Notes under the pieces: generated by a model
Databases searched by the model: none
Told to the model about the DNA's origin: nothing
Seen by the model: the letters and a program-made list of their open reading frames with translations, nothing else
Translations under genes and position numbers: made by a program
Shown: positions 3,836-47,516 of the stretch, in pieces
Position numbering within the stretch: position 1 is the stretch's first letter
How the letters are laid out: every line of letters begins with the position of its first letter
From: Scytolyngbya sp. HA4215-MV1
GTDB lineage: Bacteria > Cyanobacteriota > Cyanobacteriia > Leptolyngbyales > Leptolyngbyaceae
DNA: 64,000 bases
Direction of reading: 5' to 3'
Assembly: GCA_019359045.1 (NCBI GenBank)
Contig: JAHHIA010000015.1
Coordinates: forward strand, 1-64,000

Positions 3836-4001
3836 CAGGTTGCTCTCAATACCGGACGATCGCCCAATTCTCGATAAAATCGGCTAAAAATAGACAGGAG
3901 ATTGCATCGTTTCAGCCGAAGCGTTAGCCGAAGCCATTTAAGCCGAGCCTTCAAAATTCCTCCCATTCCACCTCTATACTGACCGCTATTTAGAGCTATT
4001 G

Positions 4002-4856
4002 ATGATGCGTAACCCCTTGATTTTACTGCGGAGTGCCCGCTCACTTGCCCCTATTCAAACAAAGTTGCGGCGGAGTCGCCACGCAATTCTTTTTTCTTTG
4101 ACTTTAGGATTTTTGATTTATTGGGGAGGGCTCTCACCTAAGCAGACTCAGGCAGCCAGTCCAAACACCGCCCCATCCCAACTGAAAGATGAGATCGCAC
4201 AAATTGACGCCGCTGCCAATCATAAAAACATTCAATCGGTTCTAAAATTTTACAGCCAAAATTTTACTCATTCCGATGGTCTGACTCGGCAGACATTGCA
4301 ACAGTCTCTTTCTAGTCTTTGGCAGCGCTATCCCAATCTTAAATATCGTACAGAACTGACTGACTGGAAATCGGATGGTAAAGGGCTGATTGCCGATACG
4401 GTGACTTATATTACTGGCGTGCAGACCGTTGATGGCAGAGAAATCAACTTCAGTGCCATGCTCAAATCTCGCCAACACTTTGAAGGACAAAAAATTACTC
4501 GGCAAGATATTTTGTCAGAACAAGTCCAAATGACTTCTGGCGCAAAGCCGCCCACCGTTAAGTTAACCTTGCCAGAGCAAGTGCGACCGGGACAAGAATA
4601 TTCCCTGGATGCAGTCGTACAAGAGCCGTTGGGAAATGATCTTCTCTTAGGTGCCGCGATCGAAGAACCTGTGAGAGTCGATGGCTATAACAAACCAGCT
4701 CCGGTCAATTTAGAACTCTTGACGGCAGGCGGTATTTTCAAAGTGGGTCGCGCTCCCTCGATTGCAGATAGTCGCTGGATTTCAGCCGTTTTGGTGCGGG
4801 GCGATGGCATGACCATCATCACCCGACGTTTACGCATCGTAGGCAAAAACAAATAA
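4002..4856 (+). CDS. Secreted or membrane-anchored NTF2/SnoaL-like protein
   Basis: A TTG at 3999 lies directly before ATG codons at 4002 and 4005; one of the ATGs is the likely start. Residues about 28-46 form one hydrophobic segment (FSLTLGFLIYWGG), followed by a TQAAS site that could be cleaved by signal peptidase. Residues about 60-165 look like a cone-shaped NTF2-like fold (DAAANHKNIQSVLKFYSQNFTHSDGLT). The remaining part, to about 284, is beta-rich. NTF2-like folds serve many functions and no catalytic residues can be named. It reads divergently from murG across about 160 bp. Specific role unknown. Confidence 0.75.
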   Translation: MMRNPLILLRSARSLAPIQTKLRRSRHAILFSLTLGFLIYWGGLSPKQTQAASPNTAPSQLKDEIAQIDAAANHKNIQSVLKFYSQNFTHSDGLTRQTLQQSLSSLWQRYPNLKYRTELTDWKSDGKGLIADTVTYITGVQTVDGREINFSAMLKSRQHFEGQKITRQDILSEQVQMTSGAKPPTVKLTLPEQVRPGQEYSLDAVVQEPLGNDLLLGAAIEEPVRVDGYNKPAPVNLELLTAGGIFKVGRAPSIADSRWISAVLVRGDGMTIITRRLRIVGKNK

Positions 4857-4909
4857 ACGAGGCCTTAGAGTCAAATCAAATTTGTTATATCAACATCACT
4901 ACCTCAATC

Positions 4910-5026
4910 TTTTTTTAAGCTGAAAGGGATGACAGCTTAAAAAAACAGCGTGGTTAGTCAAGCAAATTAGAACGATAGGGCAGTGAAGTCTCTCGACGCT
5001 CCTAGAAGTCTGAGATACTTCACTGC
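4910..5026. repeat. Two perfect inverted repeats in an intergenic region
   Basis: The first repeat has 13-bp arms at 4910-4922 and 4933-4945: a run of T, then AAGCTG, a 10-nt loop, CAGCTT and a run of A. The T run precedes the stem on either strand, so it is not a normal intrinsic terminator. The second has 10-bp arms GCAGTGAAGT (4980-4989) and ACTTCACTGC (5017-5026), with CTC/GAG pairing inside the loop. The 294-bp gap has no other recognisable content. Candidates are a small RNA, an mRNA-processing hairpin or remains of a small mobile repeat. Confidence 0.6.
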
Positions 5027-5150
5027 GCTCAAAATGCCAGTCAACTAAGCAGGATTGCACCAGAGCAGTGCGAATCCCTGAGAGAATGTGTTCTGAATGG
5101 GAATACTCAGACAATCACCCAGTTAGGACAAGGCTGGTGGCTTAAGGCAT

Positions 5151-5576
5151 ATGTGGCGAAGGCTCAAAAATATCTTGCTTAGCTTTAGGTCATATCCTGA
5201 TCTGAGTCCAGATCAGGAACTAAGGCGCAAAATCAATCGTGCACTGGCACACCGTCAAGCATTACCACCGAATGCCTGGTTTGAAACTTTTTGGCAAACA
5301 CGCAACATTTCCGAAGATATAGCGCTGTTTGTCTATACTCAGCTCACAACCTATTCCGGGATTTCATTTGCCAAAGTATTACCCAGCGATCGCTTAGATC
5401 AAGATCTCCACCTGACACTTGTTTGCTGGTTCAATTGGCAACTGGAATTGTGTGAAGACTTTTCTCAGCGCTTTCATGTGGATATTAGCGATCGACTGGA
5501 TTTTCACACCCTAGTCACCGTCGAGGATTTTGTAGTTTTCCTCAATCTGCAACTGGTTTCAGTGAATCGCTCCTGA
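5151..5576 (+). CDS. Conserved-looking hypothetical protein with possible ACP-like C-terminal half
   Basis: 141 codons from ATG at 5151, with AAGG just upstream. No family is recognised with certainty. The second half contains LPSDRLDQDLHL near residue 80, then a helix ending in FSQRFHVDI, then TLVTVEDFVVFL. This order resembles acyl-carrier proteins: a (D)SL motif, a helix leading to an FxVDI-like turn, then TVxDFVxxI. The phosphopantetheine serine is absent, replaced by arginine in DRL. No signal peptide or membrane segment is seen. It may be a carrier-like adaptor or simply a small helical protein; function is unknown. Confidence 0.65.
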   Translation: MWRRLKNILLSFRSYPDLSPDQELRRKINRALAHRQALPPNAWFETFWQTRNISEDIALFVYTQLTTYSGISFAKVLPSDRLDQDLHLTLVCWFNWQLELCEDFSQRFHVDISDRLDFHTLVTVEDFVVFLNLQLVSVNRS

Positions 5577-5656
5577 CGGTCATCGAACCCTCTCCAATTA
5601 TCAATTCCAATGCGATAAAAGAAGTCAGTGTCACCTTCATCTATCAATAAAGAATG

Positions 5657-5687
5657 GGGAGCATCTCTATTGTGTAGAAATGCTCCC
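5657..5687. terminator. Hairpin downstream of glnB
   Basis: Arms GGGAGCAT (5657-5664) and ATGCTCCC (5680-5687) with a 15-nt loop. On the minus strand the stem is followed by CATTCTTTATTG, only loosely U-rich. It lies between convergent genes and may help end the glnB transcript. Confidence 0.35.
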
Positions 5688-5713
5688 GGCTTCACTTAGA
5701 GATGAAACTTCAT

Positions 5714-5742
5714 AAGATTGCCACCCGCGTAGCAATCTTTTT
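5714..5742 (+). terminator. Intrinsic terminator, plus strand
   Basis: Stem AAGATTGC (5714-5721) and GCAATCTT (5732-5739) around a 10-nt loop, ending in a T5 run at 5738-5742. It probably ends transcription from the 5151-5576 gene before it enters glnB, which reads the opposite way. Confidence 0.55.
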
Positions 5743-5762
5743 CACGACCACTAGAAAATAGA

Positions 5763-6113
<351 letters not shown>

Positions 6114-6177
6114 TTATTAGTGCTGCACACTGTCAAATAGCATGACACTATCTATCATCGTCAATGAGGAAGTTTTT

Positions 6178-6191
6178 GTAGCTTTTAATAC
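6178..6191 (-). promoter_or_regulatory. Candidate NtcA-binding site upstream of glnB
   Basis: GTA, eight bases, TAC at 6178-6191 matches the NtcA consensus GTA-N8-TAC exactly. Its near edge is 77 bp from the glnB start codon. About 23-27 nt further towards the gene are weak -10 candidates TAGATA and TAGTGT (TAN3T form). NtcA activation of glnB under nitrogen limitation is established in other cyanobacteria; its use here is inferred. Confidence 0.65.
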
Positions 6192-6328
6192 GTTTCATCA
6201 TCTATGCCTGCATTCTACTAAAACGTTACCTCGTTTGGGTCGCAAGCCTGAACTGCATGGAGATGGCTTATTCAAGAAAAAGCAGTCCGCTCAACAATTT
6301 GCGGATCAATCTTTAATATTTAACGATT

Positions 6329-6369
6329 TTAACGATTTCGTAGCAAAGATTAACGATTTCGTAGCAAAG
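6329..6369. repeat. 21-bp tandem duplication at the end of the coiled-coil protein gene
   Basis: TTAACGATTTCGTAGCAAAG occurs at 6329-6348 and again at 6350-6369, with a further partial AACGATT at 6322-6328. The second copy contains the stop and last codons of the minus-strand gene ending at 6350; the first lies just after the stop. The duplication therefore copied the gene's 3' end. Confidence 0.85.
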
Positions 6370-6931
6370 GGCTAACGATCGCAAAACCCAAGCCAAAAAA
6401 GGTAACGATAATTAACATCACCACTAAGGTCAATTTCCAGCCTGCCAAATCAGACGATCTTTCTGGCTTAGGTGGGCGACGTGGACGACTTTCTTGCCCA
6501 GTCAATAACTCATCCGCGATTGGTGCGGGACGCATGGGGTCAAAAGTAAAGGGGGCGACCTGGTCTTTTGCAGCAGATCCAGCCGATCGCCGCGTCGTAT
6601 CCGTGGGTTCAGGCAGCAGATCGGGCTGAGCTGCCTCTGGCAAGGGCTCTGGCGGAGTTAACTGGAAGGATTGAGCAACCTGATGTAGACTCAAAGCTGA
6701 CTGTACAACTTTCTCAACTGCCGATCGCAACTGTTGATTTTGTTGAGCCAGCTGTTGGTTTTCTACCTTGAGCGAATCAAGCAATGCCTGAGTTGCTTGA
6801 AGCTCTGCTGCGACTTGCCGATAGAGTGAAATCGGTACGGAGGCAGAGTAGCCTCCTGATGGTGCTCCGGTTGGTCGATTTGTGGATGAACCACCCCGCA
6901 TCGGTGAATTGTTATTCAGTTTGGATGTCAT
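6350..6931 (-). CDS. Tail-anchored coiled-coil membrane protein, hypothetical
   Basis: 193 codons from ATG at 6931. The N-terminus is Ser/Gly/Pro-rich and disordered-looking. Residues about 35-85 form a coiled coil rich in Leu, Gln and Glu (YRQVAAELQATQALLDSLKVENQQLAQQ). A Pro-rich linker follows, and residues about 165-190 form a single hydrophobic segment (LTLVVMLIIVTFFGLGFAIV) close to the C-terminus. This suggests a protein anchored by its tail, with the bulk in the cytoplasm. No family is recognised. The gene reads in the same direction as glnB, about 250 bp upstream of it. Confidence 0.8.
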   Translation of the reverse strand: MTSKLNNNSPMRGGSSTNRPTGAPSGGYSASVPISLYRQVAAELQATQALLDSLKVENQQLAQQNQQLRSAVEKVVQSALSLHQVAQSFQLTPPEPLPEAAQPDLLPEPTDTTRRSAGSAAKDQVAPFTFDPMRPAPIADELLTGQESRPRRPPKPERSSDLAGWKLTLVVMLIIVTFFGLGFAIVSPLLRNR

Positions 6932-7059
6932 AGTTCAATTTACAGACCTGGGAATTCCCAAATTGACAAAACTAAGCCCCAGAATAGTCGAAGTTCGAGG
7001 AATCTAAACAAAATTCGCCAAAAAGTTTGCGAAGAATCCAAAAATCGATGGAGCATCTT

Positions 7060-7491
7060 ATGAGTCAGTCTTCTACCCAACCCAGTCCACCTTCCGAATT
7101 TGGCATTTCCGAATCAGAGACCCCCACAAAATACGGTGAACGCCTGATCACTGAAGGGCATCTCATCACGTTTCCCAACCCTCGAATTGGACGACGTTAC
7201 ACCATTCATATCAGCCTGCCGGAATTTACCTGTAAATGTCCGTTCTCAGGATATCCAGACTTTGCCACTATTGACGTCAGTTATGTGCCTGACCAAAAAG
7301 TCGTCGAGTTGAAGGCGCTTAAGCTCTACATCAATAGCTATCGAGATCGCTACATCTCTCACGAAGAGTCTGTGAACCAAATTTTGGATGATTTCGTCAC
7401 CGCCTGTGAGCCGTTAGAAGTCACCATCAAAGGTGATTTTACGCCACGAGGCAATGTACATACTGTGATCGAGGTTTTTCATCAAAAATAG
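7060..7491 (+). CDS. queF: NADPH-dependent 7-cyano-7-deazaguanine (preQ0) reductase QueF
   Basis: QueF reduces preQ0 to preQ1 for queuosine in tRNA. Start chosen at ATG 7060 because GGAG lies 6 nt upstream; TTG 7027 and ATG 7048 are also in frame. That gives 143 residues, the short unimodular QueF type. The nucleophilic cysteine is in TCKCPFSGYPDFA (Cys60, with Asp67 as proton donor). The QueF motif ELKALKLYINSYRDR (about residues 83-97) is intact, as is the HEESVNQILDD segment. No other queuosine genes are nearby, and I do not see a preQ1 riboswitch upstream. Confidence 0.96.
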   Translation: MSQSSTQPSPPSEFGISESETPTKYGERLITEGHLITFPNPRIGRRYTIHISLPEFTCKCPFSGYPDFATIDVSYVPDQKVVELKALKLYINSYRDRYISHEESVNQILDDFVTACEPLEVTIKGDFTPRGNVHTVIEVFHQK

Positions 7492-7549
7492 GTGCTTTCA
7501 GCTAGCAAAGATACAACCCGTCGTGATCCCTCTTGCCAAAGCGAGTCGT

Positions 7550-7583
7550 TCGTCAAAGATTAGTTGACGAGGAATCGAATTCC
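7550..7583 (+). terminator. Tandem small hairpins after queF
   Basis: TCGTCAA/TTGACGA (7550-7556 and 7564-7570) is followed immediately by GGAAT/ATTCC (7571-7583). There is no direct T run, so termination is only a possibility; an mRNA 3'-end stabilising structure is an alternative. Confidence 0.35.
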
Positions 7584-7737
7584 CAGGATTTTGACTAAAT
7601 TAAATTTTTAAGTCTTCGCTCTACCAAAGTTTTCCTGGCGGAACCCTATCTCCCTGAAAAATCCCTTGCGAACAAATTGTTAACATTTTTGAAGATTCCC
7701 GTTAGTCCTTTAAAAAAATTAACAATACTTTTGTCAT

Positions 7738-7753
7738 ATTGCAGCGCTGCAAT
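7738..7753. promoter_or_regulatory. Perfect 16-bp palindrome
   Basis: ATTGCAGCGCTGCAAT is fully self-complementary. It lies 250 bp after queF and 450 bp before the TPR gene, and could be an operator for a dimeric regulator. No known consensus is recognised. Confidence 0.4.
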
Positions 7754-8202
7754 CAGGAAACCCTTGTGCGGTGAAATCGGGGTGAAGATTACTTTCCAGT
7801 GGGGGCTTCACTCCAACCTTCAGCGCAACACTGAAGCTGGCATTTTTTCCCCTTACGAATGTTCTATATTTTTCACAGGCGTTTTGCAAAAAAAAATTGA
7901 GCATTTGGAACCTCTCAAAACATTAAGCCCTCTACAAGATTTTTGTCTGACCCTGACTTTGACAAGATTTTTGCCCGACAATTGAAGGGATGACAGAATG
8001 TTCTGCAAAAATGAAACCATTCTGTATCCATGTAAGCGTTTAGACCCATGACTCAGAGTGGTTTAGGCATGACTTATATTTTCATGGCTCTCAGTCAAGT
8101 GGCTTGGGTGCATCCGGGTTTCCTGACCTATCTGAAACAACGTGAAAAGGTTTATATACACCGGACAATTCGGTTGCTCCAATGCCGCAAAACTTTTAAG
8201 GA

Positions 8203-11079
8203 ATGTGGCAAACGGGCGGCGTTTTTATTTTTAGCATCACCGTGACAGACACTGCTTCTCACCACAACTCAGGCTTAAACCAGCAAATCTACCAGCGGTT
8301 AAGGGCAGCACTAGAGCTAAATCTGCGACGACAGATTTTTGTCGCAGTGTGCGATGACCTATCGCTACGAAATCAGTTGGCAACGAAGCTACACGCAGAA
8401 TTGGCATACCCTGCCCAGATTGTTGCAGCCCAGCGAACCGAAGAATTACCGTATCCTCGCTTGGTGAGTCTGAACCTCAGCCTGGAAAACCCTGATCCGA
8501 TGGATCAAGTTGCTTTCTGGCTAGAGCAAAATCCGCCGCCTCAAGGGAGTCATCTTCTACAAGCACCCGGATTTCAACTTTTGGGAGTTGAGCGTTTGAC
8601 TCGGCAACCGCCAACCGTACAGCGGTTGTTTTTAAGCAACCTACAAAGAATTGAGCAGATGTTGCCGACGCTGGAATCCAGCTTGTTGCTCTGGATTCCT
8701 CGCCCTTGGAGCCGAGTCATTCAACAATCTGCGCCGGAGTTCTGGCGCTGGCATACAGGAGTGTTTGAGTTTGAAGGAGAGCCGACCCCTGTACCGACGG
8801 AAGCCAAGGGTGGTTCTCTGGAAGGTAACTCAATGGAACCTGCTGTGGCTTTGCCAACAGCTGCTGCAACTCAGGCACCTGCGGCGTCACAACCGCCTCT
8901 TGCTCAGCAGTCGCCTGTACCCGCCAAAGTCGCAGCACCTGCAAAACCCCCTGTGTTATCGGAGACGATCGCCGTTGCCGATATATTGACAACAGCAACA
9001 GGGACGGATGTACTACTCCTGTCATCGCTGCCCTCACCAGCAAACAGTCAGCATCCTGTGCACCGCCCCTCTGCTGTCCAGAATACTGAGTGCACAAACC
9101 AACCCGCCTCAGAGAAACAAACGGCTGATCCCGTCACTGCTGCGATCGCATCACAGCCAGGAAGGCTTACCCCAGCCCAAAAAGAATCTTTATGGAACAT
9201 TTTGACCCATGATTTGTCCCAGCTGGACGAGCCAGAAAGCCAGGCACAGCAATCGATCGCCCCGCCACCGCCACCAGTTGTCCCACCCCCTCCCGTCCAA
9301 CCAACCAATCTGCATACGTTAGAAACGAAAAAGCTAGAAGTCCAAAAACAGGATCAGAGCCCGCAGAAGTCCTTGAAGACTGCGTTTACTGTTCCCCAAC
9401 CCCAACAGCAGCTTCGCCGAACCGAGTCAGCCTCTCCAGCCCCCTTAGCAACGCCTCCGAACCAAGCTGCTAAACTGCTTGGAGCGCCCAGCGCTCCTGC
9501 CAAGCCCAGTCCATCTGTTCCCCCTACTCGCCCCCTCAAAGCTCCAGACACGGCTGCTCCAGTGGCTGCCAAAGGTTCGGCTACTGCAAAAAGCACAGAC
9601 ACAACCCAGACTTCAGATCACGCGCTTAAGAAAGAGAAGCCTCGACCAGCCTTCACTCAATCTCAATCAGCGCTTGATCTAGCAGATTTTGTCTTAGCTA
9701 GCATTACTCAAGAAAACCAGACGGAACCCGTTTCAAACAATGGGTATGGGGCGGTAGGACCCGTCGCAACGAATGCGACCAACGGACATAAAACCAGTCT
9801 TCAGCCGCTCCAAGCACTTGAAAATATTGAACAACTGCACCTGAAACAAGCACCCCCTGCTGCACTGGCAGCTGCTTATCGCAATTTAGGCAACCTGTAT
9901 CGCGATCGCATTGAACAGGGTCATGCCTCTCAACAAAACTTGATGATTAGTATCCGCTCGTATGAGCAGGCACTGGATTGGCTTGATGAGTCTTCTTCAC
10001 TGTGGTCAGATATTTTGAACGATATTGGCAACCTGTATTGGATGTTGTCTCATAGCCCAAATCGTGGGGATAATGCACTCCGCTATCTGGAAAAAGGGAT
10101 TCAGGCTTATCAAACTGCGTTGTCTAAGACGAATCCTGACACTCGTTCTCATTCCTACGCTATGATCCAAAACAATTTAGGATCAGCCTATGGTGATCTG
10201 GCGAGGTACAGAGATTCCAGTGAACACTTGCAGCGATCGATTCAAGCATATCAAGAAGCTTTACGATATCGCGACGCGAATAGTGAACCTCAGCGCTATG
10301 CTGCCACTCAAAACAATTTGGGCACTGCCTATTGGAACCTGGCACAGCATGAAAAGCCAATCGTCAACCTGAGTCAGGCGATCGCAGCTTATAACCAGGC
10401 ATTGCATCATTACGATCCCGATCGGGAACCGCTGAGTTACGCCATGATCCAGAACAACCTAGGGACTGCCTACTGGAATTTGGCGCAATTTGAGCAAAAT
10501 ACTCCTGAACTAGCAGGAGCGCTGGATGCCTCCTCCGAAGACTTTCTCAGGTTAGCGATCGGGGCTTATCGAGTCGCACTGATCTACCGCACTGCCGAGG
10601 TTAACCCTACCGCTTACGCCGCAACCCAAAATAATCTCGGCACTGCCTACTGGCATTTGGCAAATCAGCCAACTCTACATTACGAAGAATGTGGAGAGTG
10701 TTTGCAAGCTGCGATCGTGGCTTATAAAGCTGCCCTGGAAACGGTCCAGCAAATAAGTACCAAAAATTCGTCCCTCAGTCTATCCTTCGATCGCTTCGCC
10801 ACACACAATAATTTGGGGTTAGCTCTGCACCAACTCGCCATCGACAAACACATTGAGTGGGAGGACAGCATCCGCACCACTTATCTGGAAGAAGCCCTCC
10901 AGCATCACGTACAGGCACTTCAAGGCTGGCAAGGAAAACCGGACTTCTACCAAACTGCCCTGGGCTACATCGTCCAAACGATTCGCACCTTCTACAATCT
11001 CTACGGCATCAGTGGTCAAACGTCCGCGCTTTCCAAAGTGCCTGGCTCTTTACTGTCTGAAATCTTAAGCAAATTATAG
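8203..11079 (+). CDS. Large TPR protein with N-terminal alpha/beta domain and Pro-rich linker
   Basis: 958 codons from ATG at 8203; AAGGA sits only one base before it, so GTG at 8242 is an equally possible start. Residues about 25-185 look like a degenerate nucleotide-binding-type alpha/beta domain (RQIFVAVCDDLSLRNQLATKL, LLLWIPRPW) without a P-loop. Residues about 190-500 are Pro/Ala/Gln-rich linker. From about 540 to 940 there are at least six tetratricopeptide-like repeats, with recurring NNLGTAYWNLA and AYNQAL segments. Such proteins act as protein-interaction scaffolds. There is no signal peptide or transmembrane segment. The gene stands alone and meets the stress-protein gene end-to-end. 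Partner and role unknown. Confidence 0.85.
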   Translation: MWQTGGVFIFSITVTDTASHHNSGLNQQIYQRLRAALELNLRRQIFVAVCDDLSLRNQLATKLHAELAYPAQIVAAQRTEELPYPRLVSLNLSLENPDPMDQVAFWLEQNPPPQGSHLLQAPGFQLLGVERLTRQPPTVQRLFLSNLQRIEQMLPTLESSLLLWIPRPWSRVIQQSAPEFWRWHTGVFEFEGEPTPVPTEAKGGSLEGNSMEPAVALPTAAATQAPAASQPPLAQQSPVPAKVAAPAKPPVLSETIAVADILTTATGTDVLLLSSLPSPANSQHPVHRPSAVQNTECTNQPASEKQTADPVTAAIASQPGRLTPAQKESLWNILTHDLSQLDEPESQAQQSIAPPPPPVVPPPPVQPTNLHTLETKKLEVQKQDQSPQKSLKTAFTVPQPQQQLRRTESASPAPLATPPNQAAKLLGAPSAPAKPSPSVPPTRPLKAPDTAAPVAAKGSATAKSTDTTQTSDHALKKEKPRPAFTQSQSALDLADFVLASITQENQTEPVSNNGYGAVGPVATNATNGHKTSLQPLQALENIEQLHLKQAPPAALAAAYRNLGNLYRDRIEQGHASQQNLMISIRSYEQALDWLDESSSLWSDILNDIGNLYWMLSHSPNRGDNALRYLEKGIQAYQTALSKTNPDTRSHSYAMIQNNLGSAYGDLARYRDSSEHLQRSIQAYQEALRYRDANSEPQRYAATQNNLGTAYWNLAQHEKPIVNLSQAIAAYNQALHHYDPDREPLSYAMIQNNLGTAYWNLAQFEQNTPELAGALDASSEDFLRLAIGAYRVALIYRTAEVNPTAYAATQNNLGTAYWHLANQPTLHYEECGECLQAAIVAYKAALETVQQISTKNSSLSLSFDRFATHNNLGLALHQLAIDKHIEWEDSIRTTYLEEALQHHVQALQGWQGKPDFYQTALGYIVQTIRTFYNLYGISGQTSALSKVPGSLLSEILSKL

Positions 11080-39374: not shown

Positions 39375-40478
39375 TCAAACCTTTATCCAAAGATTGCGAA
39401 TGGATAACAATTCTTGTTGCTCCAACCACTCATTCGTCATTGCTGTATGCGTTGCTAACGTCTAAGCCTGCGGCAGGCTACGCCAATGACAAACGCCAAT
39501 AACCTTTGCGACTAATGCCCGTCAAAATTGCCTGAAGCTTTGTTGTCCCCAGTTTGAGCAGATTGGCAATGCGGGTTCTCGGTCTGCGCCACTGCTTCCA
39601 GTAACACATCCGTTCGCGTTCGCGTTGCGAAGCATTATCCACCGCCTTAGCCAACCGTCTAACTCCTCTATGGGACCGTAATGTTGGGAAATGCCGAAAG
39701 TAGTTCATCCACCCCCGTAGGTATCGGTTCAATCGCTCAATTCGTTCTGCCATTGAGACTCCCCAACTGCGGGAGGTTAACCCCTTGAGTCGGTGTTTGA
39801 AGTCTTACACGGCTTGGTAGGATGCGAAAATCCGAATGCCCCGGAAGGTAAACCCCAAGTATTCGAGGTCTTCGATCGACCCCCTGACTCTTCTCGCAAT
39901 TGACCTTGAGCTTCAGCTTCTGAGTCAGGTAACAACTGATTTTAGCCATCACCCGTCGCCCTGCCCGTCTACTTTTGACCAGGATCACCAGGTCATCCAT
40001 GTAGCGAACAAAGCGATGCCCTACTTCGCCTTCACAAAGGTCTTCACCTGCCGGGTGGCTCCGTGAGCAGAACGTTTGGGTAGGCTCCCATAACTGGACT
40101 CGGAAAATCCTGGGTCAAAGATGGGAGTGAGCACTTGCAGGATGGCTTATTGGATCACCCGGTCAACCACACAAGGCACACCCAACTTTCGCTCTCCTTT
40201 CCTGTGCGGCTTGGGAATCAGCACCTGTCGCACGGGGCGCGGTTGGTAGCTGCCATGCATCAGGGATTGGCGAATCTCACTCCAATGCTCGCGGGCATGT
40301 CTAAGGTCATCCCGTCACTGCCGGGTGTCCCTTGGTTCGATTTGACTCGTTCCCAAACTCGTTGCACATTGTCTCACTCTAAGATTCGCGCCATCAGGTT
40401 GTCTAAGGCTGGTTCTCTGTCATCGCGCCAAGCACCATCTCCCCCATCCAGGTTCATCAATGGGTCTGAGTTGTTCAT
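39375..40478 (-). pseudogene. ltrA: Group II intron reverse transcriptase/maturase, decayed
   Basis: From ATG at 40478 the frame gives MNNSDPLMNLDGGDGAWRDD and ALDNLMARILE, then a TGA. The RT part continues with DNVQRVWERVKSNQG-PGSDGMTLDM, a frameshift, then RQVLIPKP-RKGERKLGVPCVVDRVIQ followed by TAA, and AILQVLTPIFDP. The segment between QVKTFVK and RFVRYMDDLVILVKS is missing, deleting RT motifs 3-4. The YMDD catalytic motif and the maturase X domain (YLRGWMNYFRHF, GYWRLSLA) remain, ending AMTNEWLEQQELLSIRNLWIKV. A short palindromic insertion interrupts the end. Several independent lesions show long-standing decay. Confidence 0.88.
39459..39484. repeat. Short palindromic insertion in the maturase pseudogene
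   Basis: ACGTCTAAGCCTGCGGCAGG and the next bases hold the palindrome GCCTG-CGG-CAGGC. The bases fall exactly where the maturase reading frame is broken by about 23 extra nucleotides. ACGTCTAAGC (39459-39468) also occurs inverted at 39361-39370. It looks like a small interspersed palindromic element of the type common in cyanobacterial genomes. Confidence 0.5.
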
Positions 40479-41046: not shown

Positions 41047-41847
41047 TTATGCTTCTAATGCTTTATCCCACTCCAACTGATGGCTGAAACCATACTTGAT
41101 GAAGTCTTCAACTTGAGCTTTATCACTCTTACCAAAAACCCCCAGACTATAGGGATTTTCTTGCATGCGTTGCTCAACTAATTCCTGCTCCATGCGGAGC
41201 ACCTCTGCTCTCGGTTGATCTGTTTTGAAGAAATCGACCACTAAAACAGTCCGTTCGTACTCTGTGTAATTGTGCGGACAATGGGGATAGCTGTGGTCTA
41301 ACACCAAAAACTTACCTTCATACCAATAAAGCTGTTCATGGCATATTTTCATGGCCACATCTCCCTGAGGCACAATCAAGCCTAAATAGCCGCGATTCAT
41401 GTGCGGATTATAATTCACATGCAGTTTGACATCTAGCCCTGGATGGAAGGTGCCAAAATATGCATTTCTGAGGATGTTGTCGTTAATTGAATTGGTTGCC
41501 TGGATTGCCTCAGTTAACGTTGGAAAATATCTTTCTCTTAATTCAAGCGCTTTCTCGGTTACATTTTGTCCTGCATATTGAAGATATTGAATGTGATGCG
41601 TTTGAATATAGGTTTCAATCAACAATCCTTGAAATAAAATACCAAATGCACTGTATTTTGCATTACCTTTCGTTTTCACTGTTTTACTTTTTGGGCCCAT
41701 TACGTCATAGGCAAACGTCAACTCTTCCTCGGAGGCTTGATTCTTAAACAATGTAAATTCATCACGAATTGCCTGCCAGTTCTCTTGCAGTATGTTCAAA
41801 AAAGGGAACTGCTGGGGGTCTAAATGATACGCATTAAAATGATCCAT
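41047..41847 (-). CDS. Aspartyl/asparaginyl beta-hydroxylase-like dioxygenase
   Basis: 266 codons from ATG at 41847, with AGGAG about 8 nt upstream. The centre shows the double-stranded beta-helix fold of Fe(II)/2-oxoglutarate AspH-type enzymes: FGTFHPGLDVKLHVNYNPHMNRGYLGLIVPQGDVAMKI and FLVLDHSYPHCPHNYTEYERTVLVVDFF. The two histidines (in KLHVNYNPH and DHSYPH) are likely iron ligands, and the arginine in YERTVLVVDF is the usual 2-oxoglutarate anchor. The N-terminal 100 residues are helical. Related proteins hydroxylate Asp/Asn side chains in peptides or free amino acids. It diverges from the amidohydrolase gene over 132 bp and probably belongs to the same small-molecule locus. Confidence 0.85.
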   Translation of the reverse strand: MDHFNAYHLDPQQFPFLNILQENWQAIRDEFTLFKNQASEEELTFAYDVMGPKSKTVKTKGNAKYSAFGILFQGLLIETYIQTHHIQYLQYAGQNVTEKALELRERYFPTLTEAIQATNSINDNILRNAYFGTFHPGLDVKLHVNYNPHMNRGYLGLIVPQGDVAMKICHEQLYWYEGKFLVLDHSYPHCPHNYTEYERTVLVVDFFKTDQPRAEVLRMEQELVEQRMQENPYSLGVFGKSDKAQVEDFIKYGFSHQLEWDKALEA

Positions 41848-41883
41848 AACCTTTTCTCCTGAATTTGCTGGAATGTCAACCGC

Positions 41884-41889
41884 TATAAT
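41884..41889 (+). promoter_or_regulatory. Possible -10 element for the amidohydrolase operon
   Basis: TATAAT at 41884-41889 matches the consensus -10 and would start transcription about 85 nt before the ATG at 41980. No good -35 lies 17 bp upstream, so an activator may be needed. On the minus strand TAGAAT (41893-41898) could serve the hydroxylase gene. Confidence 0.3.
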
Positions 41890-41979
41890 TTCATTCTAAA
41901 AGTAGGGGCGGGTTTAGCCAGGATAACTGCTAGAAATCAGAGTCTTTGGAGAAAAACCACCTCTAGCAACGGTATTCTA

Positions 41980-43482
41980 ATGCTGGCAAGAGATCCTGTG
42001 GCTGAAGCTCCTACTCTGGATAGGTTAATCAAAAATGTGCGGGTAGTTCGTCCGCATCAATCATCCGTCGATCGCCTCGATGTCGGCATTAAGGATGGTA
42101 AATTCAGCAAAATTGCCCCAGAGATTGGCCCCGACCAGGCTAAAGAGGTATTTGATGCCCAGAACTTACTCGGTTTCCCAGGAGTGGTTGATGCCCACAT
42201 GCACATTGGCATTTATCAACCCTTGCAGCAGGACGCGATCGTCGAAACCAAAGCCGCTGCAATGGGGGGAGTCACCACCAGCCTGAACTATATCCGCACC
42301 GGGCGATATTATCTGAATAAAGGCGGCTCTTACCGAGATTTTTTTCCAGAGGTGCTGGCGTTATCCGAAGGCAATTTTTTTGTGGATTATGGCTACCACA
42401 TTGCCCCGATCTCCCCGCAGCATATCGACGAAATGCAGTGGTTGTTTGAAGAACACGGCGTCGCTTCCTTCAAGATCTTCATGTTCTATGGGGGGTATGG
42501 GCTGCATGGTCTTTCTAACCAACAGAATCTATTTTTGATGATTAATGAGGGCGATCGCTACGATTTTGCCCATTTTGAATTCATTATGCGGAGTCTGTCA
42601 CAGCTACGGGAACGCTATCCCATCCTGCAAGATTCACTTAGTCTCAGCCTTCACTGTGAAGTGGCAGATATTCTCAATGCCTATACCAAAATCGTCCAAC
42701 AAGACACCACTCTGACAGGTCTTAGTGCCTACAGTGCGGCTCGTCCGCCCCACTCCGAGGGATTAGCCGTTTGTATTGCCTCCTATTTGGCGCACGAAAC
42801 AAACTGTGTCAACATCAATTTGCTCCATCTCAGTTCCCGCAAGGCAGTCGAAGCCGCGCTGATGATGCAAACAACTTTCCCCCATATCAACTTCAAGCGG
42901 GAAGTCACCGTCGGTCATCTGCTGCTAGATGTGGAAGCGCCCACAGGTAAATGGGCCAAAGTAAATCCACCGATTCGACCTCGCGCCGATGTTGAATATT
43001 TATGGAATGCTGTTCTGCAAGATCAGGTGGACTGGATTGCCAGTGATCATGCCTGTTGTTCAGCGGAGCAAAAAGCTAGCCGCAGCGATCCAGATGATAT
43101 TTGGTTAGCAAAGGCTGGCTTTGGGGGGACGGAATACTTGCTTTCAGCGATCGTCAGCGAAGGCAGCAAACGAGGGATGTCCTATAACCACATGGCAAGG
43201 CTGCTGAGTTGGAATCCAGCTCAGCGGTTTGGGCTGTTTCAAAAGGGCGATATTGCGGTTGGCTACGATGCGGATCTGGTGCTGCTCGATCCAACTGAAA
43301 CCTTTGTGGTACGTGCGGTTGAATCCCTATCTCAACAGGGCTATACCCCGTTTGAAGGGATGGAGTTAGCGGGACGAGTTAAGCATACCTTTCTGCGGGG
43401 GAATTTGATTTACGATCGGGGACAAATATTAGGTTCTCCCCAGGGACGCTATTTGAAACGATCGCAGGCATTGAAGCGATGA
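41980..43482 (+). CDS. Cyclic amidohydrolase (dihydroorotase/hydantoinase-like)
   Basis: 500 codons from ATG at 41980. The metal-binding HxH is in GFPGVVDAHMHIG (about 75), the bridging Lys in ASFKIFMFYGG (about 164), His in SLSLHCEVAD (about 227), His in NLLHLSSRKA (about 283) and the catalytic Asp in WIASDHACC (about 353). All key residues of the D-hydantoinase/dihydroorotase/allantoinase group are present. Substrates would be cyclic amides or imides. It differs from housekeeping PyrC in length and context. It heads a two-gene unit with the DUF1838 gene 34 bp downstream, beside NTF2-like and VOC genes. Confidence 0.92.
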   Translation: MLARDPVAEAPTLDRLIKNVRVVRPHQSSVDRLDVGIKDGKFSKIAPEIGPDQAKEVFDAQNLLGFPGVVDAHMHIGIYQPLQQDAIVETKAAAMGGVTTSLNYIRTGRYYLNKGGSYRDFFPEVLALSEGNFFVDYGYHIAPISPQHIDEMQWLFEEHGVASFKIFMFYGGYGLHGLSNQQNLFLMINEGDRYDFAHFEFIMRSLSQLRERYPILQDSLSLSLHCEVADILNAYTKIVQQDTTLTGLSAYSAARPPHSEGLAVCIASYLAHETNCVNINLLHLSSRKAVEAALMMQTTFPHINFKREVTVGHLLLDVEAPTGKWAKVNPPIRPRADVEYLWNAVLQDQVDWIASDHACCSAEQKASRSDPDDIWLAKAGFGGTEYLLSAIVSEGSKRGMSYNHMARLLSWNPAQRFGLFQKGDIAVGYDADLVLLDPTETFVVRAVESLSQQGYTPFEGMELAGRVKHTFLRGNLIYDRGQILGSPQGRYLKRSQALKR

Positions 43483-43516
43483 ATATAATTGTCTAGATGC
43501 AATATCGAGGCTGTAG

Positions 43517-44332
43517 ATGACGATTGAAATTCAAGATTTTGATGCCCAGCAATGGGTCAAGACACGCTCATCCCTCGATTCAACCCAATCCACCTTCTTG
43601 ACGTGGGCAGGGGCAATTTATGCGTTTGAACCTGGTGAAAAGAGAAATCGCCTCTTCAAGATGGTCGGCATGAGTGTCAGTAGATGTATTCCGACAGAAG
43701 AGGGGAGTTGGGATTTCACTTCCAGAGAATTAACGTACTACCTTCACCCAGAAACGGGTGAAATTTTACGGCATTGGGAAAACCCTTGGACGGGAGAATT
43801 GCTGACCGTCATGCATGTTGCTAACAATCCAGTACAGGGGTGCTTTAAGGGCAAATTTCCTGCACGAGTCGATCGCGATAGTGCCACCTTCGTGTTTGAC
43901 CTATTTATTACGTACCCCAATCCGCTCGCGACAGACCCAAAATTTGCTGATTACAGCCCCAATCCTACGTATCAGGCAGCCGAGTTATTCAAAATAACCG
44001 CTCCGACTGAAGACCTATCAAATCCCGAAATTCTCTCTGTTTCGAAATTACAACTTTCTTGGGATCGGATCGGACCATGGGTGCCCTGGATGAAAATGGG
44101 CGATCGCCCAGGTCACCTGATCTACAGTGCTTATGGTTGCAAAGTTAATGATATTAATGACTTGCCACAGCTGCTGAGAGATGAAATCAATACTCGCGTC
44201 CCTCTCTATAAAAATGCACCCCAATCTTACGTGGAAGGAGAAGATATGACTTCGTGGGTGTATTTTCAAAATCACTTTGATGCTTACTTGGCTGGAGAGA
44301 CTTTTCCCTTGCCACAACCAGCGGAGAGTTAA
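43517..44332 (+). CDS. DUF1838-family protein
   Basis: 271 codons from ATG at 43517. The sequence matches the DUF1838 family (KTRSSLDSTQSTFLTWAGAIYAFEPGEKRNRLFKMVGMSVSRCIP, LTYYLHPETGEILRHWENPWTGE, WVPWMKMGDRPGHLIYSAYGCK). The WENPWTGE and YLHPETGEI segments are the most regular. No signal peptide or membrane segment. Function is not established; the compact beta-rich pattern with many Trp/Tyr suggests small-molecule binding. It is co-transcribed with the amidohydrolase and ends in a perfect palindrome shared with the convergent NTF2-like gene. Confidence 0.92.
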   Translation: MTIEIQDFDAQQWVKTRSSLDSTQSTFLTWAGAIYAFEPGEKRNRLFKMVGMSVSRCIPTEEGSWDFTSRELTYYLHPETGEILRHWENPWTGELLTVMHVANNPVQGCFKGKFPARVDRDSATFVFDLFITYPNPLATDPKFADYSPNPTYQAAELFKITAPTEDLSNPEILSVSKLQLSWDRIGPWVPWMKMGDRPGHLIYSAYGCKVNDINDLPQLLRDEINTRVPLYKNAPQSYVEGEDMTSWVYFQNHFDAYLAGETFPLPQPAES

Positions 44333-44341
44333 CTCTCCGCT
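44320..44341. terminator. 22-bp perfect palindrome between convergent genes
   Basis: AGCGGAGAGTT (44320-44330) is followed at once by its exact complement (44331-44341). The centre overlaps the DUF1838 stop codon TAA and the far end lies four bases from the stop of the convergent NTF2-like gene. It should form a strong hairpin in both transcripts. No T run follows, so it may limit read-through or stabilise 3' ends. Confidence 0.55.
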
Positions 44342-44344
44342 GTA

Positions 44345-44740
44345 TTAATTCGATTGCCCATCGCTGCCTAAATACTCTCGGTATCCACAAATTTTATCGT
44401 CGCGGACATCAAATGAAACAGCGACTCGATTTTTATAGGGTTTTCCCCACATGAGTCCTTCATCGCGGAACTCAAACACGACCGTTGTTTCGTTGCTGGT
44501 TACCCGATCGAGCGTCAAGTTTAACCCTTCGCTATAGACTTCAGAAACATAGTGAAAAAATTCGATCGCTCGTGCTTTTCCGATATTTAATCCACGAAAC
44601 TGACCTAGCGGAAACCAGAATGAAAAATCGTCAGTGAGCATATCAAAGAACGCTTGCCATGCTCCGGTCGCAAGTCCCTGCTCAAAATGGGCAAAGGCTT
44701 GTCGAGCAACCGCTACTGTATTGGCTGATTCTGTAGTCAT
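44345..44740 (-). CDS. NTF2/SnoaL-like enzyme or binding protein
   Basis: ATG at 44740 (MTTESANTVAVARQAFAHFEQG) is preferred; the frame is open to 44812. 131 residues. The pattern of three N-terminal helices and a curved beta-sheet fits the SnoaL-like NTF2 fold: FFDMLTDDFSFWFPLGQFRGLNIGKARAIEFFHYVSEVYSEGL and TTVVFEFRDEGLMWGKPYKNRVAVSFDVRDDKICGYREYLG. Such proteins act as isomerases, cyclases or hydrolases, or simply bind ligands. It lies 100 bp after the VOC gene on the same strand, likely one transcript. Confidence 0.85.
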   Translation of the reverse strand: MTTESANTVAVARQAFAHFEQGLATGAWQAFFDMLTDDFSFWFPLGQFRGLNIGKARAIEFFHYVSEVYSEGLNLTLDRVTSNETTVVFEFRDEGLMWGKPYKNRVAVSFDVRDDKICGYREYLGSDGQSN

Positions 44741-44797
44741 AATGAGTGCTTTGTCAGTGTTAAATTTTAGAACCGTCGGTCTCTGATTCTCCAAGAC

Positions 44798-44822
44798 CTC
44801 CAAGGTTTTCAAAACCTCGGAG
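44798..44822 (-). terminator. Hairpin between the VOC and NTF2-like genes
   Basis: CTCC (44798-44801) pairs with GGAG (44819-44822), then, after one A-C mismatch, AGGTTTT (44803-44809) pairs with AAAACCT (44811-44817). No T run follows, so it is more likely an RNA-processing or attenuation hairpin within the transcript than a full terminator. Confidence 0.4.
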
Positions 44823-44839
44823 ATCTGAGATCTTGAGAG

Positions 44840-45820
44840 TCAGCATCCTTCTTGTCCAACAATCACCCAACTTATTTCGTCAGGTGCTACTAAACCAAAA
44901 GAGCGTTCACTAAACTCATTCGACAGAATCGGGGTTACTGATCGGGCATCGCTGCGACTAACGCGATCGTGAAAATCTTGAATATCTTCAACCTGATAGG
45001 TGAAAAGGCATGGACCCAGAACTCCAGGTTGAGCAAACTCCAGCCTGTCAGGAGCTGAGTATAGCGGCGTGTAAACTTGTAAGACACCTACATCCGTTTT
45101 GGGTGACGTAAATGAAGATAAAAGAAACTCTTCTCCCTCTCCTAACATTAGAATTTGCCGAGTTGCGGGATTTTGATAGCCCGATCGCTTCCGGGTATTG
45201 TTAGCAGGAACTAAGCCAAAGACATCAGTGTAAAATGCAGCGGTATCATGATCAGCCGTGACAATACTGGAGTGGGTTCCCTCACTCACGCCTAAAGGAG
45301 AGGTTGGGTCAATCACGCCATACCCTGGACGAGTATAGTTGTAGCGTTGAAAGAAAGCTTGTCGCGTTTCTGATCCAATCACAAAAAACTCGCGCACCCC
45401 TGTAAATCGCTGGTAGAAGTTAGTGCCAGGTTGACCGATAAATTCGATCCCACGAATCGGTTCAGTGACAATCCAATCACCGCCATTGGCGTTGTCGTCG
45501 TTGAAGGCATCGGCAACTGCATAGATATCTTGCACTAGCGAAGCAAACCAGCGGCTGCCAATCACGAACGGATGGGATTTCTGCAGTCCTGCATTACGAG
45601 GTTGCTCCCAAGCCATGACGCGAACTAAGCCATGATCGGTGGAATTGCCATTTTGTAAACGGATTGATGTCAGGTTAGAGGCATGCCCATAAAGTGCATA
45701 AGCAGTTTCCGCTGACAACTGCCCGCGTTGAATTTCCCGATATCCTAACTCAGCCCAATACTGAAGCGTAGGCTGTGCTTGTTCGGAACCGATACAATTT
45801 TCGAAGATGCCACTGATCAT
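44840..45820 (-). CDS. VOC-superfamily (glyoxalase-like) protein, two-module
   Basis: 326 codons from ATG at 45820. The N-terminal half (FENCIGSEQAQPTLQYWAELGYREIQRG) and C-terminal half (GTHSSIVTADHDTAAFYTDVFGLVPANNTRKRSGY) each resemble a beta-alpha-beta-beta-beta VOC pair. The second half has the best metal-binding candidates (His in GTHSSIVTADHD, Glu in the LFTYQVEDIQDF region). Members include glyoxalases, extradiol dioxygenases and resistance proteins. The sequence does not say which. It is upstream of the NTF2-like gene; together with the amidohydrolase and DUF1838 genes it forms the cassette. Confidence 0.88.
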   Translation of the reverse strand: MISGIFENCIGSEQAQPTLQYWAELGYREIQRGQLSAETAYALYGHASNLTSIRLQNGNSTDHGLVRVMAWEQPRNAGLQKSHPFVIGSRWFASLVQDIYAVADAFNDDNANGGDWIVTEPIRGIEFIGQPGTNFYQRFTGVREFFVIGSETRQAFFQRYNYTRPGYGVIDPTSPLGVSEGTHSSIVTADHDTAAFYTDVFGLVPANNTRKRSGYQNPATRQILMLGEGEEFLLSSFTSPKTDVGVLQVYTPLYSAPDRLEFAQPGVLGPCLFTYQVEDIQDFHDRVSRSDARSVTPILSNEFSERSFGLVAPDEISWVIVGQEGC

Positions 45821-46277: not shown

Positions 46278-46342
46278 TTCAGGTCAAGGCATAGAATAAA
46301 GGCAGAATGGCTGAACCACCTGCTAATCTGGGAGGCGAAATC

Positions 46343-46662
46343 ATGCTCACGCTCAACATTCAACTTCCTGAAGAAAAGCTGGTTGAATTCTGTCAACGCT
46401 GGAAGCTGAGTGAGCTTGCCATGTTTGGTTCTGTCCTGCGAGACGATTTTCGTCCGGATAGTGATATTGATGTCCTTATCACCTTTTTGCTTCAGATGCG
46501 AAACGGGGATTAATGACACTAGCCAGCATGAAGTACGAGCTAGAAGACTTACTAGGACGTAAAGTCGATCTGGTTAGTAAATACGCGATTGAAACGAGCC
46601 ATAACTGGATTCGGCGCAATGAAATTTTGGGAACGGCTCAGGTGGTTTATGTCGCGAGATAG
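46343..46662 (+). pseudogene. MNT-type nucleotidyltransferase antitoxin (MntA-like), frameshifted
   Basis: Start ATG 46343 with GGGAGG 7 nt upstream. The nucleotidyltransferase motif GSVLRDDFRPDSDIDVLI is intact. At a T5 run (46484-46488) the frame breaks and stops at 46511-46513. The homologous continuation, FASDAKRGLMTLASMKYELEDLLGRKVDLVSKYAIETSHNWIRRNEILGTAQVVYVAR, is in another frame and ends at 46662. T3 or T6 in place of T5 would restore one frame. In MntA/HepT modules this enzyme AMPylates the HEPN toxin. Its stop overlaps the toxin start by 14 bp, the usual layout. Confidence 0.88.
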
Positions 46663-46990
46663 TGCCTCATTGCTAGACATTGCCGGAGCTGCCCAGCTTA
46701 TCCTGGCATTTGCTCAGGGATTAGAAAAGACAGAACTGGCGGCAAATCTGGAAAAGCAGTCCGCTATTCTCTACCAAATCGTCATCATTGGTGAAGCCGT
46801 CAAGTGACTCTCTACCGACTTCCGTAATCAACATCCAGAGATCTCGTGGCGAGAAATTGCCGGAATGCGAGACACCCTTACCCACCAGTACGATCGCGTC
46901 GAAGTCGATGAAATCTGGGGAGTGATTCAAGACGATATTCCTCAACTGTTGTCTATGATTGAGCCTTTGCTACCTGTTCAAGGACCCTAA
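46649..46990 (+). pseudogene. HEPN-domain RNase toxin (HepT-like), nonsense-mutated
   Basis: ATG at 46649 opens MSRDSASLLDIAGAAQLILAF and runs to IVIIGEAVK, where TGA at 46805-46807 interrupts. The same frame then continues to 46990 with LSTDFRNQHPEISWREIAGMRDTLTHQYDRVEVDEIW. The catalytic R-x4-H motif (RDTLTH) lies after the stop. Relatives have Arg or another sense codon after GEAVK, so a CGA to TGA change is the simplest explanation. Both genes of the pair are therefore dead, the toxin before or with its antitoxin. Confidence 0.88.
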
Positions 46991-47018: not shown

Positions 47019-47516
47019 TCAGCAACCTTCTGGAGATTGTTCACAAGCCCCAATGCTTACCCAACTACTAGAACCATCTGCCCAATGTTCTTTTTTCCAG
47101 ATCGGGGCATTGTGTTTTAGGGTGTCGATCGCATACTGGCACGCTGCAAACGCCTCCGATCGATGGGGGCATCCCACTGCCACCAGCACACTGATTTCTC
47201 CCACCTGCAACCGTCCGACCCGATGGTGGATTACCACATGGGTAGCTTCTGTCCAGGTTTGGCGAATCTCTGCTGCAATTTGCTGGAAGACTCGAATCGC
47301 CATCGGTTCGTATGCCTGATATTCCAGTGCCACCACTGCCTGACCTTCGGTATTGTTGCGTACCATGCCGCTCATTACCACCACTGCACCATTGGCAGCA
47401 TCATCTGCCAATTGATAGACCTCTGTCAGAGATAAGGGTGCAAATGTAATGGCAAAACTATCGTCCGGTAAGAGTGGTGCAGGTTTAGCGAGAAAAGCTG
47501 GAGTTGCTGAAATCAT
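47019..47516 (-). CDS. moaE: Molybdopterin synthase catalytic subunit MoaE
   Basis: 165 codons from ATG at 47516. MoaE, with MoaD thiocarboxylate, converts precursor Z (cPMP) to molybdopterin for molybdenum enzymes such as nitrate reductase. Conserved segments are GAVVVMSGMVRNNTEGQAVVALEYQAYEPMA, VVIHHRVGRLQVGEISVLVAVGCPHRSEAF and the catalytic lysines in DTLKHNAPIWKKE. The N-terminal 20 residues are an extension, and length is otherwise normal. No other moa gene is adjacent. Confidence 0.96.
   Translation of the reverse strand: MISATPAFLAKPAPLLPDDSFAITFAPLSLTEVYQLADDAANGAVVVMSGMVRNNTEGQAVVALEYQAYEPMAIRVFQQIAAEIRQTWTEATHVVIHHRVGRLQVGEISVLVAVGCPHRSEAFAACQYAIDTLKHNAPIWKKEHWADGSSSWVSIGACEQSPEGC

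Follow-up and report, generated by a model that had tools for sequence, protein, structure and literature searches.

A split cyanobacterial gene set around a hydantoinase-type amidohydrolase: a candidate pathway for a cyclic metabolite

Five genes around a divergent AspH-amidohydrolase pair

The window analysed here is a stretch of 64,000 nucleotides from the cyanobacterium Scytolyngbya sp. HA4215-MV1 (contig JAHHIA010000015.1, positions 1 to 64,000), and our subject is a group of five genes within it: a gene for an AspH-type dioxygenase (AspH) diverges from a pair encoding a cyclic amidohydrolase (AMH) and a DUF1838 protein, and this pair converges with genes for an NTF2-like and a VOC-superfamily protein (Table 1). 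Comparison with other genomes leads us to think it probable that these genes are half of a conserved cyanobacterial pathway of about eleven genes, split over two loci, in which AMH would open a ring; the direction of the pathway lies outside that estimate.

All five open reading frames were recovered where the original prediction had placed them, and because the ratio of nonsynonymous to synonymous substitution rates (dN/dS) against relatives is low throughout (AspH 0.06, AMH 0.035, DUF1838 0.10-0.12, NTF2 0.10, VOC 0.07-0.09), we regard the genes as intact, functional, and under purifying selection. A longer NTF2 reading frame from a TTG start at 44812 finds no support in the orthologue of G148, one of the two nearest relatives. 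The palindrome on which the two gene pairs were said to converge does exist, but it is absent in both nearest relatives, G148 and G094; it was therefore rejected as a conserved element and can be no more than a local bidirectional terminator. The dead intron and dead toxin-antitoxin pair reported nearby were also found, as a group II intron maturase remnant (GIIM domain at 39478-39753, with another same-strand open reading frame piece upstream; window 39478-40000) and a broken HEPN/MNT pair (MNT nucleotidyltransferase fragment at 46307-46513, HepT-like fragment at 46589-46807).

The other half of the proposed pathway lies on contig C25 of the same genome, where six intact, ordered genes (3380-8861) encode a nitrilase-fold protein (NIT, PF00795), an aldehyde dehydrogenase (ALDH), a DUF3598-like protein, an alpha/beta hydrolase, a RidA-like protein, and an oxidoreductase (MDR). 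Together with AspH, AMH, NTF2, DUF1838, and VOC in the window this makes eleven pathway genes. The C25 genes follow the order of the single cluster in G029, except that MDR is placed differently with respect to RidA and that the beta-keto-acid cleavage gene (BKACE) is absent from the C25 half. Since the window genes sit deep inside their contig (C8), a contig end cannot account for the split on the window side, and split arrangements are frequent among AMH-positive genomes. Directly upstream of the C25 half is a tyrosine-recombinase gene (C25:2312-3289, locus L165) with a Phage_int_SAM_4 N-terminal domain and an integron-integrase-like layout.

Table 1. Features of the window locus and of the second locus on contig C25 of the same genome
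Feature	Coordinates	Strand	Remarks
AspH-type Fe(II)/2-oxoglutarate dioxygenase (PF05118)	41047-41847	-	Pfam E 3.5e-18; constant AMH partner
AspH-AMH divergent intergenic region	41848-41979	.	presumed promoters of both genes
AMH, hydantoinase/allantoinase-type cyclic amidohydrolase	41980-43482	+	PF01979 E 2.8e-13; full binuclear metal site (by residues) plus Tyr170
DUF1838 protein (PF08894)	43517-44332	+	E 7e-110; predicted closed beta-barrel; optional accessory module
Palindrome, perfect 12+12 bp	44319-44342	.	spans DUF1838 stop, between convergent genes; possible bidirectional terminator
NTF2/SnoaL-like protein (PF12680)	44345-44740	-	E 1e-11; close to solved NTF2-like protein 3dmc
VOC-superfamily protein, two-module length	44840-45820	-	PF00903 E 0.034 (weak); G029 orthologue 6e-8
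NIT	G000:C25:3380-4420		orthologue
ALDH	G000:C25:4473-5888		orthologue
DUF3598-like gene	C25:5977-6432		follows ALDH
Alpha/beta hydrolase	C25:6434-7258
RidA	C25:7285-7719	-
MDR	C25:7848-8861

Distribution of the gene set

The strongest evidence for a functional association comes from a sample of 341 cyanobacterial genomes, in which Fisher p-values were calculated without regard to phylogeny. AMH is present in 24 genomes; an AspH of the AMH-partner type is found in all 24, within 3 kb of AMH, with one fragment among the 317 genomes lacking AMH (p 6e-36), and NIT is found in 23 of the 24 and in 1 of the 317 (p 2e-33). Because NIT and AMH are not linked in 10 of these 23 genomes, its co-occurrence with AMH is not a by-product of linkage. 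Four genera (g4, g7, g13, and g17) hold both positive and negative genomes, and within them the genes vary together, except in the AMH-positive genome G016, where no NIT was found. AMH, AspH, and NIT thus have almost identical distributions, being either all present or all absent, further genes cluster with them, and many filamentous cyanobacteria keep or lose the pathway as a unit. Chance adjacency is rejected by this co-occurrence, whose p-values take no account of phylogeny but which shows both states within the four genera; the non-random association foreseen in the original prediction goes far beyond chance, and the contrary outcome, genes scattered among relatives with no co-occurrence, did not materialize. 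What did not survive is the idea that the five window genes are themselves the unit: the constant core is AspH-AMH-NIT, DUF1838 and VOC are optional, and at least six more pathway genes lie on another contig.

The divergent AMH-AspH pair is found in all 9 close-relative genomes with AMH, and the AMH loci of G021, G029, G006, G016, and G030 also carry some or all of the genes for NIT, ALDH, a DUF3598_N-like protein, MDR, NTF2, a DUF4437 cupin, the alpha/beta hydrolase, RidA, BKACE, DUF1838, and VOC. A scan of GTDB genomes returned 132 AMH relatives, from which we kept 80 loci, often truncated by a contig end; all 80 are cyanobacterial (Nostoc, Scytonema, Fischerella, Brasilonema, Symploca, Leptolyngbya, Xenococcus, Pleurocapsa, and others). 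AspH accompanies AMH in 69 of these loci, followed by the DUF4437 cupin (45), MDR (41), NTF2 (40), the DUF3598-like protein (34), the alpha/beta hydrolase (33), ALDH (25), NIT (24), RidA (11), BKACE (6), DUF1838 (5), and VOC (4), the MDR and cupin counts taking in some distant matches (about 30% identical). Two further genes recur in Nostocales: one for a PaO-like Rieske oxygenase in six AMH loci (L057:12091-13434, L060, L071, L074, L092, and L115), and one for a 153-residue protein with an ABM domain (antibiotic biosynthesis monooxygenase family) that adjoins the DUF4437 cupin gene in L085 (11706-12167) and six other loci.

We treat DUF1838-NTF2-VOC as an accessory arm, with DUF1838 and VOC as an optional paired module, because the module also exists without AMH. 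DUF1838 occurs in 36 of the 38 VOC-positive genomes (p 4e-21) and lies within about 2 kb of VOC in 19 of the 36 genomes with both; among the 24 AMH-positive genomes VOC is found in 18 and DUF1838 in 17. G148 and G094, which belong to another family, carry a DUF1838-NTF2-VOC set that is 84-94% identical to that of the window, and no AMH, AspH, or NIT was found in either; moaE flanks VOC-NTF2-DUF1838 both in the window (47019-47516) and in G148 (L145:6373-6870), a synteny that extends across families. In G154, a VOC gene of the window type adjoins AMH. There are two VOC subfamilies, about 36% identical (that of the window, G148, G094, G154, G183, and G189, and that of the remaining proteins), each found together with DUF1838. 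Some VOC or AspH orthologues (G175, G311, G216, G340, and G199) have one stop codon within the matched stretch, either internal or at the end of the gene.

Catalytic residues and predicted folds

The AMH metal ligands H73, H75, K165, H225, H283, and D356, as well as Y170, are invariant in 90 of 90 sequences, which bears out the earlier statement that all active-site residues are present; by these residues (HxH, carboxylated Lys, two His, and Asp) AMH would be a binuclear cyclic amidohydrolase of the hydantoinase superfamily. Its matches are to models of allantoinase, hydantoinase, and dihydropyrimidinase, yet it falls below every curated cut-off, with 234 bits against 358 for the allantoinase AllB equivalog and 201 against 393 for the dihydropyrimidinase/D-hydantoinase equivalog. 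In a search of the whole genome it scored 150 bits against the dihydroorotase cut-off of 279, and two other genes, on contig C31, pass that cut-off with 350 and 327 bits; since separate dihydroorotases exist and AMH reaches only about half the cut-off, we reject the possibility, raised with the original prediction, that AMH is ordinary PyrC. In hydantoinases, the Tyr that follows the carboxylated Lys is catalytic. Tyr170 aligns with a Tyr in the D-hydantoinase 1nfg but not in the allantoinase 3hm7, and because this hydantoinase-type residue is present AMH may still act like a hydantoinase despite its score.

AspH belongs to PF05118, and its motif HPGLDxKLH ... DHSYPHCPHNYTxxxRT, comprising the His ligands and the C-terminal Arg region, is conserved in 75 sequences; it does not reach the LpxO or OlsC acyl hydroxylase equivalogs (38.6 bits against a cut-off of 500, and 50 against 450). 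We were unable to find AspH relatives on plasmids. Control of the AspH-AMH promoter by NtcA was considered and rejected, GTAN8TAC being found in none of 67 homologous intergenic regions where 4.8 would be expected. Several non-Nostocales (the window at 41873-41908, L043, L047, L048, and L044) share a CGCTATAATTTCATTCTAgAAG-like stretch in this region, and the Nostocales regions have TAGTGTGAGGTCTA in common.

Three proteins of the C25 half have altered active sites: i) NIT keeps the Glu of the Glu-Lys-Cys triad, but in 26 of 26 sequences the nucleophilic Cys is replaced by Ser and the catalytic Lys by Arg; ii) the alpha/beta hydrolase has Thr at the nucleophile position, with a GNHTG-type elbow in 38 of 44 sequences and GxxSG in none of the 44; and iii) the RidA-like protein, whose best solved match is YjgH, has PTWTG (12 of 12) in place of the active-site Arg that archetypal RidA deaminases carry near the C-terminus. 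Because of these alterations the three proteins probably catalyse reactions other than the textbook ones, and that several members of a single pathway have conserved exchanges of the nucleophile points to unusual chemistry. The catalytic motifs GQSC and ELGGK are both retained in ALDH.

Structure prediction for DUF1838, proposed earlier as a check, was run with AlphaFold2 and gave a beta-barrel with C-terminal helices at a mean predicted local distance difference test score (pLDDT) of 95.0. Its best structural matches include BFA1, the nitrobindin-like Rv2717c, the bilin lyase CpeS, and a DUF3598 protein, with Z 7.6-8.9 over 117-140 residues, and DUF1838 may be a calycin-like beta-barrel. The best match (Z 8.9 over 131 residues) is at a level that may reflect the common barrel only, and DUF1838 differs from the calycin-like barrels with which it aligns at Z 7-9 (nitrobindin, CpeS/CpcS bilin lyases, BFA1, and DUF3598) in having 3-12% identity and partial coverage (about residues 9-212). 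Notably, DUF3598 is also matched by another protein of the pathway. A search of the PDB for DUF1838 sequence relatives returned only insignificant cholinesterase matches (E 0.24 or worse), and the top Foldseek matches (PsbO, TM 0.24) were judged uninformative. The VOC alignment has conserved His and Glu columns that are not assignable as metal ligands, and the VOC structure model is of low confidence (pLDDT 65.8).

A candidate ring-opening pathway and its relation to known systems

We favour a ring-opening metabolism of a cyclic imide, ureide, or lactam, and within it we consider breakdown or recycling of a cyclic metabolite more likely than biosynthesis of one, because of ALDH, BKACE, and the genes that surround an AMH of 57% identity on the Rhodococcus gordoniae plasmid pDND3A. 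In such a pathway AspH would hydroxylate a cyclic nitrogen compound with Fe(II) and 2-oxoglutarate; AMH, with its hydantoinase-type binuclear centre and Tyr170, would hydrolyse the cyclic imide, ureide, or lactam bond; the opened product would be processed further by ALDH, through aldehyde oxidation, and by the reductase MDR; BKACE, in some strains, would perform beta-keto-acid cleavage; and DUF1838, the DUF3598-like protein, NTF2, VOC, and the DUF4437 cupin, all small-molecule-binding folds, probably provide isomerase, lyase, or carrier steps. The small-molecule chemistry of the original prediction is thus supported, and its view that the gene combination is typical of degradation is plausible. 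A more far-reaching version, in which a 2-oxoglutarate-dependent hydroxylase, a hydantoinase-type enzyme, three re-tooled folds (a nucleophile-replaced nitrilase fold, a Thr-elbow alpha/beta hydrolase, and an Arg-less Rid protein), and the DUF1838 and DUF3598-like barrels form a new pathway of filamentous and related cyanobacteria acting on a cyclic nitrogen compound not so far known to be metabolised, DUF1838 being a new family of enzymes or carriers, we put forward tentatively, at somewhat less than even chances.

Several observations weigh against the pathway we propose: DUF1838 is missing from 7 and VOC from 6 of the 24 AMH-positive genomes; the hydrolytic steps are doubtful because NIT, the alpha/beta hydrolase, and RidA lack canonical residues; no transporter or dedicated regulator, common in catabolic operons, recurs in AMH loci; the co-occurrence p-values carry no phylogenetic correction; and AMH loci in Rhodococcus (including pDND3A), Streptomyces, and Nonomuraea contain none of the other cyanobacterial pathway genes. 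A Nonomuraea record among the plasmid relatives does hold relatives of NIT (50%), AMH (41%), and DUF1838 (32%), but as these sit far apart there is no cluster. What genome comparison shows is the composition of the gene set, its co-occurrence, selection, and residue conservation; the reactions assigned to AspH, AMH, ALDH, MDR, and BKACE are inferred.

Biosynthesis is the rival that deserves most attention, although we think it unlikely: the gene set would build or tailor a specialised metabolite, with AMH closing a ring or acting on an intermediate and SnoaL, VOC, DUF1838, and cupin proteins serving as cyclases or isomerases. The many ligand-binding folds typical of tailoring, the patchy spread (24 of 341 genomes), the hydrolase folds with replaced nucleophiles, and the lack of a transporter or regulator among the recurrent families would all fit, whereas no core enzyme (nonribosomal peptide synthetase, polyketide synthase, terpene, or ribosomally synthesised and post-translationally modified peptide) recurs in the clusters, and ALDH and BKACE are found more commonly in degradation. 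The superfamily parallels, a hydantoinase-type AMH, a CN-hydrolase, and ALDH in one pathway, invite comparison with ordinary pyrimidine or hydantoin salvage, in which AMH would be a dihydropyrimidinase, NIT a ureidopropionase or carbamoylase, and ALDH a semialdehyde dehydrogenase; we consider this very improbable, as the presence of three re-tooled proteins in one pathway, NIT among them, argues against it, AMH scores far under the dihydropyrimidinase and dihydroorotase cut-offs, no dihydropyrimidine dehydrogenase recurs in AMH loci (the whole genome was not searched for one), and such salvage has no place for AspH, DUF1838, the cupin, or VOC. Least credible of all, and barely worth entertaining, is that the five genes are functionless leftovers of a broken-up cluster decaying beside dead mobile elements: the intron remnant and MNT/HepT fragments on the flanks, the distribution over two contigs, and the integrase gene adjoining the C25 half would suit such an island, but the genes are all intact at dN/dS 0.035-0.12, the C25 genes are likewise intact and in order, a genome of another family, G148, also has DUF1838-NTF2-VOC next to moaE (88-94% identity), and the split is common in AMH-positive genomes.

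In the literature searched, most subscription papers lying outside the search, we found no paper on this gene set or its substrate, none for DUF4437 or for DUF849 together with cyanobacteria, and, in agreement with the original prediction, no described pathway with DUF1838 in this setting; the one paper to touch on DUF1838 mentions it in passing, in the aurantimycin cluster (PMC5031334). A cyclic amidohydrolase has been proposed for hydantoin formation and opening in anabaenopeptins (PMC10381486), an idea we did not adopt for AMH because no nonribosomal peptide synthetase recurs beside it. The work gathers loose annotations (AspH, amidohydrolase, DUF1838, NTF2, VOC) into one defined set of genes whose phyletic signature can be tested, gives DUF1838, DUF4437, and the DUF3598-like protein a common biochemical context, and offers a precise target for metabolomics.

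Among known systems, reductive pyrimidine degradation (dihydropyrimidinase, ureidopropionase, semialdehyde dehydrogenase) has in common with the cyanobacterial set a cyclic amidohydrolase, a CN-hydrolase fold, and ALDH; the cyanobacterial set differs in a CN-hydrolase without Cys and Lys, in the additional AspH, MDR, DUF1838, DUF3598-like, NTF2, VOC, and cupin proteins, and in the lack of the dehydrogenase from its loci, to which that comparison is confined. The Rut pathway shares adjacent RidA (RutC-type) and alpha/beta hydrolase (RutD) proteins, with weak RutC and RutD matches, but the cyanobacterial proteins score far below the RutC and RutD cut-offs and have changed catalytic residues, and RutA is not among the recurrent families. 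The AMH homologue on pDND3A is alike over its full length and has the same active-site residues; its neighbours (CoA transferases, MaoC, CoA-ester lyase, MmgE/PrpD, and hydantoinase A/B) form a group that looks catabolic. Compared with hydantoinase/dihydropyrimidinase and allantoinase (1nfg, 3hm7), AMH is similar along its full length and in its putative binuclear ligands, with the hydantoinase-type Tyr after the carboxylated Lys, and differs in its sub-cut-off scores and in its gene setting with AspH and NIT. The superfamilies represented in the set are known; it is their combination and phyletic coherence that appear undescribed.

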